Below are positions 2,496 through 15,199 of a stretch of DNA of 64,000 nucleotides, piece by piece. Numbering within the stretch: the first letter of the stretch is position 1; each line of letters starts with the position of its first letter. The translations under genes and the position numbers were made by a program. The DNA lies in the IMG/VR virus record IMGVR_UViG_3300026484_000007, positions 186,001 to 250,000 of that record. One strand, 5' to 3'. The notes beneath the pieces were generated by a model that saw only the letters and a list, made by a program, of their open reading frames with translations, had not been told where the DNA came from and did not search any database. Source of the stretch: a virus.

Positions 2496-3107
2496 ATGCA
2501 GAAAATAAAAAATGATATTGATTTAATATCAGATGAAATAAAAAATGAACTGAAACTGATCGAATCAAATCTTTATGCTTTATTCGATTCAAATGATCAT
2601 TCTGACGAACTTTATCAAAAAATTTTAAACATGCAAGACGATATACTTAATAATCCATTTTTCATCGAGCATGGTTTAAGTCAAGAATTTAATAAATTAT
2701 TTAAAATTCTTATTTTTTTAAGTTCTAAAATTGACACAAATGATAAAGAATTCAAGAAAAAAATGTTTGATATCTTAAGCAAATTCAAAGAGAATAAAGA
2801 AAAAAGCGTTGAACTTTCTAAGTATTATATTGAATATTTAAATGAACTTTTAAAATTAATTGAAGATTTAAAAAAAGAAAAAGAAAAAGAAAAGGCAAAT
2901 AAAGATCCAATAAATTACAAAGGAATAAATAAATTTTTATTTATTGTAAAAAATTTATTAATTTATTTATTTAATTCTAAACCAGTACAAGTTCTTTTTA
3001 GTGTATCTTTGGTAGTAGCATTTTTGTATGGTTTAAAAACATTTGACGTAAATTTCTATCAAGAATTTATTGAGTTATTTAAAACTATTCATAAAATATT
3101 TTTATAA
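2496..3107 (+). CDS. Coiled-coil protein with C-terminal membrane anchor
   Basis: The 203-residue product is mostly acidic/basic helix, with a Lys/Glu run at about residues 127-136. A hydrophobic segment at about 163-181 (VQVLFSVSLVVAFLYGL) probably anchors it in the inner membrane with the helical part in the cytoplasm. The start has a strong AAGGAG site. The gene is the first of a rightward operon, 12 bp before a receiver-domain protein that itself precedes a histidine kinase. An accessory or scaffolding role in that signalling system is inference from context only. Confidence 0.75.
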   Translation: MQKIKNDIDLISDEIKNELKLIESNLYALFDSNDHSDELYQKILNMQDDILNNPFFIEHGLSQEFNKLFKILIFLSSKIDTNDKEFKKKMFDILSKFKENKEKSVELSKYYIEYLNELLKLIEDLKKEKEKEKANKDPINYKGINKFLFIVKNLLIYLFNSKPVQVLFSVSLVVAFLYGLKTFDVNFYQEFIELFKTIHKIFL

Positions 3108-3119
3108 AAAGGAGTTCTA

Positions 3120-3971
3120 ATGAAAATTATAAAAAATTTATTGAAAAAAATAGAAGACTTTATAAGTGATCTAAAAAAGATCATTTATTATCAGGAAGAA
3201 AAAATTGAGGGGGATAAAGAAGCTAATTCGGGGGGATCGATTAATTCTACAGAAAAAGCAAAAAATGGCGCGGAAGAAATAATTAATTTAGAAAAAGAAG
3301 CGATAGAAATCGATGAGGAAATTCTAAAAACATTCGAAGAACAAGAAAAAACAATCAATCAATTTCAAAAAAATTATTCGGAAATTGAACCTCTAGATTT
3401 AGATAATATAGACTTTTCAAAATTCACCATTATTATCTCCGATGATCATTTAGGTTCTTTGAAATCAATTATTACTGATATAAAAATGATTCTAAAAAAT
3501 GAAACTCAATTTAGTTCGATTAATTCAGAAACCTTAATCAGAATTAAAAAAATAAAAGAAAAATTTGAGAGTCTATATGGATCTTTTTATGATATAAATC
3601 TTATAACTTTTAATACAGATTATGCTCCATATATCATAGAAAAAACATTAGAAAAATATCCAGAGCTTAAACCTAATATAGCGATACTAGATATTATCTA
3701 TGGAGGATTCTTAATTAAAGATAAGAAAAATTATATTTTAGATGGGGTTGACATTGCGGAAAAGATCGTAGAAAGATCACCAAATTGTTTAATTGATTTT
3801 TATACTGGATGCGACCTAAATAAAAATAGTGCAGAAGCAAATAAAATAAATAATTTATCTAAAAAAACTCAAGTACATATTACGGATAAAGACATTGATG
3901 ATAACCATCGTCTAAAACCATTAATTCGGTTATTCGAATCTTTTTTAGATACAACCGAAAAGGAGGAATAA
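3120..3971 (+). CDS. Receiver-domain (response-regulator-like) protein
   Basis: This 283-residue protein has a charged N-terminal helical half (about 1-100) and a C-terminal half resembling a CheY-type receiver. I see the paired acids after strand 1 (IIISDDH, D108-D109), a likely phospho-acceptor after a hydrophobic strand (NIAILD, D191), the switch Thr (FYTG, T229) and the conserved Lys (TDK, K257). Spacing between D109 and D191 is about 40 residues longer than usual, so there is an insertion. No DNA-binding output domain is visible. It sits between a membrane protein and a histidine kinase (2-bp gap), and I infer that it is the kinase's phosphorylation partner. Confidence 0.65.
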   Translation: MKIIKNLLKKIEDFISDLKKIIYYQEEKIEGDKEANSGGSINSTEKAKNGAEEIINLEKEAIEIDEEILKTFEEQEKTINQFQKNYSEIEPLDLDNIDFSKFTIIISDDHLGSLKSIITDIKMILKNETQFSSINSETLIRIKKIKEKFESLYGSFYDINLITFNTDYAPYIIEKTLEKYPELKPNIAILDIIYGGFLIKDKKNYILDGVDIAEKIVERSPNCLIDFYTGCDLNKNSAEANKINNLSKKTQVHITDKDIDDNHRLKPLIRLFESFLDTTEKEE

Positions 3972-3972
3972 A

Positions 3973-5517
3973 ATGAGTTCTTTCAATTCTTCTAATAAAT
4001 CTTCTAATACAAATGAAACAACCGAAACAATCGAAACGATTGAAAATTTTTCAAAAATATCAAAAATACCAAATCTTTCTCAATTAGATGATGAATCCGA
4101 AGCTCAAATAACTTCAGATTCAATATTTTCTAAAAATGGAAAAATTATTTTATTCTCTGGAATCTTTATTATATTTTTAATTAATATATTATTATTTTTT
4201 TATTTTAAATACGAAATAAATAGAGATTTAAAATATTTAAATCTCTATTCTGATATAAAGATCCAAAAAAGATACGAAGGTGATTACTTTTTTAAATTAG
4301 ATGAAAATCGTTTTATTAAAAATGAAAATAATTCAATTAAATTAAATAAAATTATAGGAATAAATATTTTCAAAGATGGATCTTTTAAAGATCCTTTTTA
4401 TTGCATAAATAAAAAGATTTATGTTTCAAAAGAATTAAATTTTAAACATAATTCGATTAAAATTTTATATCCATTGAATGATAAAATTTATTTTTTATTA
4501 CTTAATAATTTATTATTATTTTTATTCGTAATAATTTTATTGAGATTAAATAAATACTATAAAATGATCCATGAAAAAGAAACTGCTATTATAAAAACTA
4601 TAAAATTCAAGCATCAAAGTAATAATCTCGAAGCAAAGATTATTCAAGATATTGCTGAAAATATTCATCATGAATTAAAAACTCCTATAATTTCTTTAAA
4701 AAATATAATTAGAGAATACCAATTTGCTTTAGATATAATTCAGCAACTTGCGCAAAAAAAAGGTAATCGTTTAATTGATAGAATTTTTTATTTGAATAAA
4801 AATCCTACTTCATGTTGGTCATGTCAATTTCATGACATTGAAAATCCAGCATGTAGGTATTATTCAAAAAACGAAATTAATTTATCTAAAAAAATTATAG
4901 AATTAAATGAATTAGCTGATGTTGCGTTAAAAAATATTTTTGGTACCATAAAAATTACTAAGAACTTAAAATCATTTAAAGAACAAGTTGGTGAAATCAA
5001 TGTTTATGACGTGATTTATCGTTCGATAAGTATCTATCATATGGTGCAAAAATATAAATTCAAATACCAAATCGATCCAAAATTAAAAGAATGTTATCTT
5101 AATGGATTAAATCCAGAAGTTCTTACTAATATTTTATTAAATCATATTAAAAATTCATTAGAAGCAAACGGAACGATAATAACTTTTAAATACATTGAAT
5201 ACATAGAAAACATAGAAAATGATCCTGAAAAGATCTCTTCCAATAAATCAACTAAGCCTTCTAAACCTTTAATTCATATTCAGATAATTGATAATGGAAA
5301 TGGAATTCCAAAAGATAAACAGCGAAAGATTTATCAACTTGAATTTAGTACCAAAAGTGTGACTAAATTAAGAGGCGTTGGTCTTTATATTTCGAGAGAA
5401 TTATTACGATATTATGGAGGAGATGAGAAGTTAAAATTTAGTAGCCATTTAGGTACTATTTTTGATTTATATATTCCTATTAAATATTGTGAAAAAAAAT
5501 CAAAGGAAAATCAATGA
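3973..5517 (+). CDS. Membrane sensor histidine kinase with Cys/His cluster
   Basis: This 514-residue protein has two membrane helices (about 55-77 and 170-190) flanking a roughly 95-residue outer domain, then a helix pair with the H-box HHELKTP (phospho-acceptor probably H233). The ATPase domain shows an N-box (NILLNHIKNSLEANG), a G1 box (DNGNGIP), an F-like box and a G2 box (RGVGLYISRELL). Between the two dimerisation helices lies a C-x2-C-x2-H-x6-C cluster (C281, C284, H287, C294) that could bind a metal or Fe-S centre. Autophosphorylation on His from ATP and transfer to the adjacent receiver protein is the expected reaction. Full membrane histidine kinases are rare in phages. Confidence 0.85.
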   Translation: MSSFNSSNKSSNTNETTETIETIENFSKISKIPNLSQLDDESEAQITSDSIFSKNGKIILFSGIFIIFLINILLFFYFKYEINRDLKYLNLYSDIKIQKRYEGDYFFKLDENRFIKNENNSIKLNKIIGINIFKDGSFKDPFYCINKKIYVSKELNFKHNSIKILYPLNDKIYFLLLNNLLLFLFVIILLRLNKYYKMIHEKETAIIKTIKFKHQSNNLEAKIIQDIAENIHHELKTPIISLKNIIREYQFALDIIQQLAQKKGNRLIDRIFYLNKNPTSCWSCQFHDIENPACRYYSKNEINLSKKIIELNELADVALKNIFGTIKITKNLKSFKEQVGEINVYDVIYRSISIYHMVQKYKFKYQIDPKLKECYLNGLNPEVLTNILLNHIKNSLEANGTIITFKYIEYIENIENDPEKISSNKSTKPSKPLIHIQIIDNGNGIPKDKQRKIYQLEFSTKSVTKLRGVGLYISRELLRYYGGDEKLKFSSHLGTIFDLYIPIKYCEKKSKENQ

Positions 5518-5687
5518 ATGCAATAATGTCAGGAGCAGCTCCGGTTGCTCCGATGGCTTCATCGCGGACGATACAATCGATTAAACCGATGAAAGATCTT
5601 GGAAATAAATTAAATAAAGCTTACCAAGCTCATAAAGCGCACAAAGCCCACAAAGCTCGAAAAAACTATAAAAATAGAAAAAATTAA
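5514..5687 (+). CDS. Small basic peptide with AHK repeats
   Basis: A 57-codon frame starts with an ATGA overlap on the stop codon of the histidine kinase, so translation is probably coupled. The N-terminal half is Ala/Pro/Ser-rich (GAAPVAPMASS). The C-terminal half is Lys/Arg/His-rich with AHKAHKAHKARK, like histone H1-type tails. It may bind nucleic acid or be a packaged DNA-condensing peptide; the sequence supports only a strongly basic peptide. Its stop lies 37 bp before the next gene, which has its own ribosome site. Confidence 0.6.
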   Translation: MNAIMSGAAPVAPMASSRTIQSIKPMKDLGNKLNKAYQAHKAHKAHKARKNYKNRKN

Positions 5688-8030: not shown

Positions 8031-9152
8031 ATGCGACAAATAAAATATTTAGAGATCTTAAATGAAGCATCTCGAGTCGACAAAGAACTTAATAAATTAA
8101 GAAAAAGCAATCCAGAAAAAGCTAGAAATATGATGTCTAAGCTTACAGTGCATGCAAATAAATCTATTTTAAATAATAATATTTACACTAAAAAAGATGA
8201 AGGCAAAAAATTTATGGTTGACAAGCCTTTGAATTATAATAAAATACATTTTGCAGCTAACGATAAATTCAATGAAAGTTTTTTTAATGACTTTAAAAAA
8301 AGTTACCGAGAACGATTAAAAGCAATTCCAGAAAACCCTACAATTTCTTCTATTCCAAAAGAAGAATTTAATCAACGATTCGCTGATAGACGTTTTATAA
8401 TGAATAATAATAAAGTAAATAAATTATACGATATGGGATATCTTAATAAAGATGCTTATGATAAAGTCCTGAAAGTAAAAAATTCTGAAAATTTAAAAAA
8501 TCATGTTCCAGAAACATACGATAATCCTAATAAATTTTCTCAAAAAGAAGAATTGAATTATCCAGATAAAAATAATAAAGGGTATACGATCTCTTATCAA
8601 GGAAAAAATTCTTTTGATTTCTTTATGAATAAAAATAAAGAATTTTATAGCAATGTTCCTTTATTTAATAAAGGAGAGAGACAAGCCGTAATTCATCCTC
8701 CTGGGACTATTTATACAAGTGTATTTGATAATAAAGATTCGTATAAAGAGGAGTTAAGATCTTTAAAAGATTCTGATGGAGGAAGTTGGTATGCAATGCG
8801 AACTGGAGAATATGGCGATGAGCCTATTCAAATTAAAGGAAAAATAAAAGGCAAACATATCATTACGCCACCAAACGCAGAAGCTCCTACCGAAGGGTTA
8901 TTGGATAGAGATACAATTCAGAATTTAATCAATAAAAATAAAATAAAAGTAAAAGATTATAAAAATCCTAATGTTTATGATTATAATCAATATGATGATT
9001 CTTATCCTGAACACGTTAACCCTAAATATAATGTAATACGGGCTAAATTAGATCCTGATAGCTTTAATGATATTTCCAACGAAAATGGAACTTACAGATA
9101 CATTGTTTCGCCAAATTATACTTATACAAAACATTTCAAAGGAAAAGGATAA
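8031..9152 (+). CDS. Hypothetical virion protein with processing leader
   Basis: This 373-residue protein begins MRQIKYLEILNEASRVD. The L-N-E-A-S is the clearest form of the leader shared by virion proteins here, which predicts cleavage after the Glu. The rest is hydrophilic and alternates Lys/Asn-rich stretches with a C-terminal alpha/beta region (about 185-370) rich in Tyr and Pro. I recognise no family and cannot assign catalysis. It is followed after 2 bp by the endonuclease VII-like gene, so the two are co-translated. Confidence 0.6.
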   Translation: MRQIKYLEILNEASRVDKELNKLRKSNPEKARNMMSKLTVHANKSILNNNIYTKKDEGKKFMVDKPLNYNKIHFAANDKFNESFFNDFKKSYRERLKAIPENPTISSIPKEEFNQRFADRRFIMNNNKVNKLYDMGYLNKDAYDKVLKVKNSENLKNHVPETYDNPNKFSQKEELNYPDKNNKGYTISYQGKNSFDFFMNKNKEFYSNVPLFNKGERQAVIHPPGTIYTSVFDNKDSYKEELRSLKDSDGGSWYAMRTGEYGDEPIQIKGKIKGKHIITPPNAEAPTEGLLDRDTIQNLINKNKIKVKDYKNPNVYDYNQYDDSYPEHVNPKYNVIRAKLDPDSFNDISNENGTYRYIVSPNYTYTKHFKGKG

Positions 9153-14305: not shown

Positions 14306-15199
14306 ATGAAAAGAAAAAAACATTTAAAACATATAAAATACATAAATTATTTAAATGAAACTGCCACTATTGGAGCTCTAAATATAGGAAAAGCTGCAGC
14401 AATTGGAGCTGGGAAAGTAGGAGCCGCGACAGCCACCACTGGAGTTGCTTCTGGAGCTGGAACTGGAGCAACCGCAGGCGCAGGAATAGCTGGACTAAGC
14501 GCGTTAGGATTATCTGGTAAATTAATTAAGAAAACTTCAGAAGGATCTTTTAAAGATCACATTAGTAATTCAAACAATCAAAATATTTCTCAGAATATTC
14601 TAATGAAAGATAAAGAATTATATAATGAAATTTTCAATAAAACCAAACAGTTCGAAAATTCAAAAAATCTTTCAGGTGTTTATGATCACGGGACTACAGT
14701 AGGATATGGTAATGATGTTCGATTTTTAGAAGCTAGAGATTTTAAAGATTGGGCAAACGCAAAATCATTCGAAGGCACCCCATTTCAATCAAAATTTAAA
14801 CAATGGGCTTCTGATGGTAAATTTGATAAAAATGAACAACAAGAATTCGTCAATCTTGTAAATAAAAATCATTTAACTCCTGAGCAAATGAATACTATTT
14901 ACAAACATGAATTTGATGAAAGAATTTTACAATTGAAAAATACGTTAGCTAAAGAAGGTATCGATTTTAGCTCTTTACCTGCAAATGTAAAAAAAGTTTT
15001 AATTGATTTTAATTATAATGCCGGTACTGGAAATCTTTTAAAAACTTTAAAAGCAAAAGGATCTATTGAAGATCTAAAATCAGGCGATTATAATGATTTT
15101 GCTAACGATATTAAAACTAGTAATTGGTATAATAATTTTTTAAGTTCGAATATTGATAGACATCATTATATCGATGGAAATTTATCCGATTACGTTTAA
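14306..15199 (+). CDS. Membrane-anchored virion lysozyme (GH24-like)
   Basis: This 297-residue protein begins with a leader (INYLNETAT), then a long Gly/Ala hydrophobic zone (about 20-72), then a lysozyme domain from about residue 100. That domain has a Glu in KQFENSK (likely acid), the turn DHGTTVGYGND that fits the GH24 catalytic Asp/Thr region, and LPANVKKVLIDFNYNAGTG matching the conserved helix of T4-type lysozymes. It would cleave the peptidoglycan glycan strand. The N-terminal zipper and leader suggest packaging in the virion and membrane insertion at entry rather than release lysis. ASDGKFDKNEQ is an EF-hand-like insert. Confidence 0.7.
   Translation: MKRKKHLKHIKYINYLNETATIGALNIGKAAAIGAGKVGAATATTGVASGAGTGATAGAGIAGLSALGLSGKLIKKTSEGSFKDHISNSNNQNISQNILMKDKELYNEIFNKTKQFENSKNLSGVYDHGTTVGYGNDVRFLEARDFKDWANAKSFEGTPFQSKFKQWASDGKFDKNEQQEFVNLVNKNHLTPEQMNTIYKHEFDERILQLKNTLAKEGIDFSSLPANVKKVLIDFNYNAGTGNLLKTLKAKGSIEDLKSGDYNDFANDIKTSNWYNNFLSSNIDRHHYIDGNLSDYV

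Follow-up and report, generated by a model that had tools for sequence, protein, structure and literature searches.

Two-component systems pair a histidine kinase (HK), which carries H, N and G boxes and autophosphorylates, with a receiver whose matching active site accepts the phosphate; receivers without an output domain (the CheY/Spo0F type) work by binding other proteins. Phages are usually thought to read the host via direct protein switches and not via phosphorelays. The locus described here, which encodes a membrane protein (p1), a receiver protein (RR) and an HK, resembles bacterial two-component systems with single-domain receivers (CheY, Spo0F and ThkA-TrrA of Thermotoga) in having an H/N/G kinase and a receiver fold with a five-residue active site and no output domain. 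It differs from them in the N-terminal helical extension of RR, the insertion after alpha-1 and the loop insertion after the phospho-Asp, in the FYTGNxLN signature of the RR family, in the presence of p1 as a membrane partner in the operon, and in being found, so far, only in phage contigs. Among NCBIfam and PDB profiles, the one nearest to the HK core is that of the LvrB-like hybrid kinases of Leptospira; the HATPase core is common to both, but LvrB is a hybrid with its own receiver, and the similarity is far below the curated cut-off.

Among viruses, the Clostridioides phage phiCDHM1 carries an AgrC sensor kinase (PMC7790227) and soil phages carry phoR genes (PMC10987575); these are host-type genes, and no conserved kinase-receiver-p1 cassette has been reported for them. 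A survey of jumbo phages has described a divergent receiver, cREC, which is associated with NAD/ADP-ribose enzymes and never with histidine kinases (PMC7824862). Like RR, cREC is a divergent receiver-like domain of large phages, but HK accompanies RR in all 25 RR-bearing relatives, and the cREC criterion is thus not met. Kinases that carry receivers in giant viruses and in viruses of brown algae (EsV-1, Hokovirus) also come up in a viral fold search with RR; they have the receiver fold in common with RR but are mostly large proteins from viruses of eukaryotes. In the lysis inhibition of T4, a periplasmic signal sets the time of lysis, with the RI antiholin binding the T holin directly (PMC11413866, PMC8385771); the likeness to the present cassette lies in the proposed logic only, T4 having no phosphorelay and no homologous parts. 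In the full-text literature (open-licence papers), no paper was found with wording such as 'phage-encoded histidine kinase'.

The p1-RR-HK operon and its proteins

The window, i.e. the whole stretch of 64,000 nucleotides that was analysed, corresponds to bases 186,001-250,000 of a 272,602-bp virus record. The terminase and RNA polymerase beta-like proteins of this phage are only about 20-32% identical to their matches in GenBank phages, which points to an isolated jumbo-phage lineage. The operon (23% GC) is poorer in GC than the window as a whole (28%). Four ORFs and the predicted functional residues of their products are located as follows (window coordinates; conservation refers to the phage families described below).

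2496-3107, plus strand: p1, 203 aa, with a helical cytoplasmic part of ~150 residues, one C-terminal transmembrane (TM) segment and a short tail
3120-3971, plus strand: RR, 283 aa, with an N-terminal helical extension (1 to about 100), a receiver domain (about 102-283) and no output domain
3441-3446, plus strand: acidic pair D108-D109 of RR, after beta-1, metal site; invariant in 26/26 RRs
3690-3692, plus strand: D191 of RR, after beta-3, predicted phospho-acceptor; invariant (26/26)
3804-3806, plus strand: T229 of RR, after beta-4, conserved Thr/Ser (T in 23/26, S in 3/26)
3888-3890, plus strand: K257 of RR, after beta-5, conserved Lys (post-beta-5 Lys in 26/26)
3973-5517, plus strand: HK, 514 aa, with two TM segments and DHp and HATPase domains
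4669-4671, plus strand: H233 of HK, predicted phosphorylated His, in the H box IHHELKTP; invariant (26/26)
4813-4824, plus strand: CWSC (C281-C284) of HK, in the loop between DHp helices 1 and 2, part of a three-Cys cluster; loop Cys in 17/26
5140-5154, plus strand: N box of HK (N390, N394); invariant (26/26)
5290-5304, plus strand: G1 box of HK, DNGNG in DNGNGIP (D440, G442, G444); D in 26/26, both G in 25/26, the remaining row gapped
5374-5382, plus strand: G2 box of HK, GVG in GVGL (G468, G470); 25/26, the remaining row gapped
5514-5687, plus strand: 57-aa basic ORF, overlapping the HK stop

The gaps between p1 and RR and between RR and HK are 12 nt and 1 nt, respectively, HK overlaps the 57-aa ORF by 4 nt, and AGGAG-like Shine-Dalgarno sequences precede the p1, RR and HK ORFs. 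Judged by this arrangement, p1, RR and HK form a tight operon, as the original prediction stated. The coupled small basic peptide that the same prediction placed after them calls for a correction: the 57-aa ORF has no Pfam match, no counterpart was found in the closest relative (L146) or the other cassette loci, where the best match has E 0.03 over a short stretch, and it is thus not conserved and probably lies outside the two-component system. The neighbour of the cassette, just downstream, is a head-tail adaptor gene.

The HK contains two strong hydrophobic segments, around residues 50-83 and 168-199, with a predicted periplasmic stretch of ~90 residues between them, and residues 384-503 match HATPase_c (PF02518, E 9.9e-12), passing the curated cut-off; together with H233 and the N, G1 and G2 boxes, this bears out the claim of a complete kinase. 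The Glu of the H box is kept in 26/26 HKs. The HATPase domain is found in all 17 family members searched, HisKA in four of the 17 (best E 0.0011) and not in the window HK. The nearest named profile is the bacterial LvrB (E 1.4e-11), and the NCBIfam matches to LvrB and AtoS are both far below their cut-offs. A C-x4-C pair is present in the N-terminal/periplasmic part of 17/26 HKs; in the window HK, the periplasmic pair is missing, and the DHp loop contains CWSC plus one further Cys. Metal or redox sensing by the cysteines of the cassette is a possibility, for which there are no test data.

The receiver is less readily recognized. The window RR by itself has no match in Pfam or NCBIfam and no significant one among PDB sequences, and PF00072 has no match in the whole phage; this profile matches four of the 17 RR family members, weakly (best E 3.3e-4). 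RR is accordingly below the Pfam gathering score and is classed as a divergent receiver by its fold and active site. The AlphaFold2 (AF2) model from the single sequence consists of alternating strands and helices (pLDDT 60) and has only weak structural matches; with 16 relatives (alignment A6), the pLDDT of the core rises to about 90, and in a fold search with this model, 16 of the 18 PDB matches at E below 0.001 are receivers (best E 1.9e-5), the best being CheY/CheB-type domains and most targets having TM-scores of 0.6-0.7. The fold is not imposed by the input, because the alignment comprises family members only and no ordinary receivers; it does, however, rest on one AF2 model from 17 sequences. 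Compared with seven ordinary receivers, the RR profile gives an hhalign E of 3.6e-8, with the acidic pair, the phospho-Asp, the next Gly and the Thr aligned. According to the model, then, RR has the (beta-alpha)5 receiver fold, and the absence of such a fold at 3120-3971, which had been set in advance as grounds for refutation, was not encountered. Matches of the RR alignment to a PI-phospholipase PDB profile involve one short FYTGxNxN stretch and were set aside in favour of the fold evidence.

The receiver active site (acidic pair, phospho-Asp, Thr/Ser and Lys) is met in 26/26 RRs, as is the conserved Gly; the post-beta-5 Lys is slightly displaced in the window RR and that of L146. There is one RR copy per record. 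In line with the expectation that the receiver lacks a DNA-binding part, RR comprises the helical extension and the receiver domain only; an output through protein contact remains inferred. In six relatives (L152, L154, L155, L160, L161 and L169), the N-terminal extension of RR is Cys-rich, with 4-5 Cys before the receiver, mostly where the HK loop holds few or no Cys; this might be a metal site.

The hydrophobic segment of p1 is single and C-terminal (around residues 158-185). Comparison of p1 with Pfam and PHROG yields no usable match, and it resembles no known family. HMM relatives of p1, each with one C-terminal TM segment, are present in 23 of the 25 other cassettes, whereas no recognizable p1 was found in those of L157 and L162. 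In all cassettes that have p1, it directly precedes RR and never adjoins HK.

Recurrence of the cassette in uncultured viruses

A profile built from the window HK and three HKs of bacteria (A5) detects 23 viral contigs, and one with phage HK members (A7) detects 25; merged, the two scans yield 26 other IMG/VR contigs with a family HK (L146-L170 and L132). One contig (L149) ends inside HK, and the other 25 are usable for counting RR and p1. RR is encoded just upstream of HK in 25/25 intact contigs and p1 upstream of RR in 23/25; L155 and L169 have one extra membrane-protein gene between RR and HK. Both proteins retain their catalytic residues throughout the 26 RR-HK pairs (the window and the 25 relatives), so that a loss of these residues in relatives, the other outcome that would have undermined the proposal, is not seen. 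The evolutionary distances are strongly correlated (r 0.80 for HK-RR, 0.73 for HK-p1 and 0.78 for RR-p1; each p 1e-4), as expected for genes inherited together. The presence of these genes in the same order in 23 further viral contigs, a search of the kind that the original prediction suggested, makes the cassette more than a chance arrangement. All the relatives are uncultured contigs, and several share metagenomes.

The closest relative, L146 (the same contig as L123), has at least 11 genes in common with the window phage. The identity is 71% for the head-tail adaptor and 64-65% for the clamp-loader-like protein and the terminase, compared with 45% for HK and 36% each for RR and p1, which indicates that the cassette has been kept in this lineage but diverges faster than those neighbours. 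A tree that includes ten HKs from bacteria or other sources places the window HK and 24 other phage HKs in one clade with a support of 100/100 and a long branch (L169, where the H-box pattern is unmatched, is excluded). The tree attests to separateness and not to a particular ancestor, because the outgroup is small and some of its branches are very long. An hhalign comparison of alignments A7 and A5 is circular, the window HK being present in both, and was not used.

Outside these contigs, tblastn searches of 50,697 GenBank phages with two family HKs yield generic HK matches only, and with three family RRs, two matches at E 1 and no others; a search of 72,556 plasmids with RR gives no match. 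Neither HK nor RR, used as a single-sequence query, retrieves anything related from GenBank phages, genomes or viral contigs; this failure reflects the limits of exact peptide patterns, which the profile scans overcame. A genome scan with peptides of the window HK reveals no close bacterial relative, but because only these peptides were used, bacterial relatives of other HK members are not excluded. The description of such systems as very rare in phages thus stands for the GenBank phages, where no relative was detected, but fails for uncultured large phages, in which the cassette family is recurrent. As far as these sequence comparisons go, p1-RR-HK is a conserved phage cassette, described here for the first time. 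If it is indeed restricted to phages, the only place where it is known so far, many uncultured large phages would run their own stimulus-response signalling in infection. The cassette also contributes three new protein families (p1, RR and the HK clade), to which come the two envelope proteins linked with it.

A search for the H box at the DNA level recovered one real HK among 13 contigs, and an ordinary OmpR-type regulator adjoins it. In two further contigs, an ordinary single-domain receiver adjoins an HK (L142:3683-5417, in a contig of 68 kb, and L145:3349-5333, in one of 545 kb); by the RR model, both are outside the family.

Proposed role and competing explanations

The reading that on balance appears probable, by a modest degree, is that of a phage-owned, envelope-sensing two-component system in which RR works through contact with another protein, probably p1, the role of the family being a late envelope event, with lysis timing or inhibition as the first candidate. 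HK would reside in the inner membrane, its small periplasmic part facing an envelope signal; upon this signal, it would autophosphorylate H233, using ATP that the HATPase domain binds, and the phosphate would pass from H233 to D191 of the output-less RR. Phospho-RR would then work through protein contact, the likeliest partner being p1, made just before RR from the same operon. Phosphotransfer and the signal are inferences for which there is no biochemical evidence, and the same holds for p1 as the target or partner of the receiver; p1 is the first candidate by its anatomy: with few exceptions its gene immediately precedes that of RR, the two proteins co-vary, and p1 tethers a helical cytoplasmic part to the membrane. 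What counts against the reading is that p1 has no likeness to a known family and is unrecognizable in L157 and L162, and that the window HK is without the periplasmic C-x4-C pair that most relatives have. The presence of the gene set, with catalytic residues intact, in at least 25 other viral pieces suggests that these viruses keep dedicated envelope sensing, possibly to time the burst, and the cassette offers a directly testable proposal on what phages sense late in infection.

Control of a late envelope event across the family, with lysis timing or inhibition ranked first, is suggested by the neighbourhoods. Among the 12 records with a detected endolysin, six have one (of three families) within 3 kb of the cassette, compared with 1.56 expected under uniform placement (P 0.0013). 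With late phage genes clustering as they do, this null overstates the enrichment; it also ignores kinship among records (L148 and L151 are related). In L132, the order is endolysin (PF00959, E 2e-25), Rz-like, Rz1-like (phrog_9385, E 1e-6), p1, RR, HK; in L147, a spanin-like pair precedes p1; in L126 (the L151 contig), p1 follows an endolysin (GH108) and a holin (3TM; phrog_3427, E 7e-29), and L148 shares this endolysin family and, as judged by eye, the holin. An M15 endolysin is upstream of the cassette in L163 and L169 and downstream in L165. The window phage itself is a counter-example, its detected M15 endolysin being 113 kb away and the gene next to the cassette being the head-tail adaptor, and endolysins are also far from the cassette in several relatives (G007, G010 and G019). 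Lysis control is the leading candidate role but is unproven, being inferred without biochemical evidence.

In 12 of the 25 relatives, the cassette is followed by a gene for a secreted protein of 82-137 aa with a GWxR-like motif, and in nine of those 12, next comes an intact barrel-like protein of 363-420 aa with a signal peptide and an aromatic last residue, the residue type in which outer-membrane barrels end; this gene is apparently broken in two more. One of the barrel-like proteins matches DUF3373. Both genes are missing in the window phage and L146, and the window member, with neither linked lysis genes nor a barrel, may be a stripped version. A phosphorelay-controlled lysis switch, in which the barrel, the periplasmic protein, HK, RR and p1 together span the envelope, sense superinfection or the state of the envelope and set the lysis time, is a tentative and rather doubtful elaboration; if true, it would be a counterpart of T4 lysis inhibition made of two-component parts. 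In L132, a complete chemoreceptor (dCache, HAMP, MCPsignal; 3645-5348) is encoded right after HK, an arrangement seen once.

The same secreted and barrel-like proteins are what speaks for superinfection or receptor control, whereby the cassette would sense the outer membrane and alter the envelope against other phages, the lysis genes being mere late-region neighbours. This is possible but unlikely, given that the window phage and L146 do without both genes and that p1 and RR are cytoplasmic or inner-membrane proteins. By analogy with T4, lysis control and envelope or superinfection control could be one system.

About as doubtful is the explanation that p1 assists HK, as an accessory sensor or a scaffold, and is not the output, with RR serving as a phosphate sink or acting on an unlinked phage protein. 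Like HK, p1 is membrane-bound, and the RR and HK of L157 and L162 persist without a recognizable p1, but p1 always precedes RR and is not found next to HK, and its distances track those of RR (0.78) slightly above those of HK (0.73).

Cross-talk of the phage HK or RR with kinases and response regulators of the host, or with its chemotaxis machinery, in place of p1, is compatible with the action of CheY/Spo0F-type receivers on other proteins and with the chemoreceptor of L132; it nevertheless seems unlikely, with p1 adjoining RR in 23/25 relatives and co-varying with it, and the chemoreceptor found only once. Finally, a recently captured, inert bacterial gene pair, functionless in the phage, is highly improbable and already disfavoured: HKs are common in bacteria and the nearest named profile is bacterial, but the phage-only HK clade is deep and long-branched, the catalytic residues are intact in all 26, each record has one copy, and the scan with window HK peptides gave no close bacterial relative. 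The reading of a phage-owned envelope-sensing system thus remains the preferred one.

Other features of the phage genome

A second HATPase match in the phage genome is, by sequence, a type II topoisomerase and not an HK. An 18-bp element, TTAGAACT[CG][CG]TATATATC, is found 38 times over the entire phage record when its reverse complement is counted, 35 of these copies being intergenic, and often as inverted pairs; the window copies include those at 2300-2317 and 2422-2439, and the element may act as a terminator or promoter across the genome. In the structural region, many ORFs (at window positions 8031, 7397, 10584, 14306, 38493, 50497 and others) begin with similar short peptides, ..YLNEAS.. 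or FLNKRSxxDLLxIEE, which may be a propeptide for capsid targeting; the ORF at 14306 also contains a weak lysozyme-like (Pesticin-type) region.

Past the window, at 258-272 kb of the record, several ORFs in a row have radical-SAM-like CxxxCxxC motifs. On the minus strand, record positions 141222-142160 (L097) encode a secreted solute-binding protein of the NMT1/TAXI type (PF16868, E 6.6e-8), unusual in a phage; a scan with this protein for the identity of the host was negative. Also on the minus strand, at record positions 134931-137477, two adjoining ORFs resemble, by eye only, the NAD-salvage enzymes NAMPT and adenylyltransferase.
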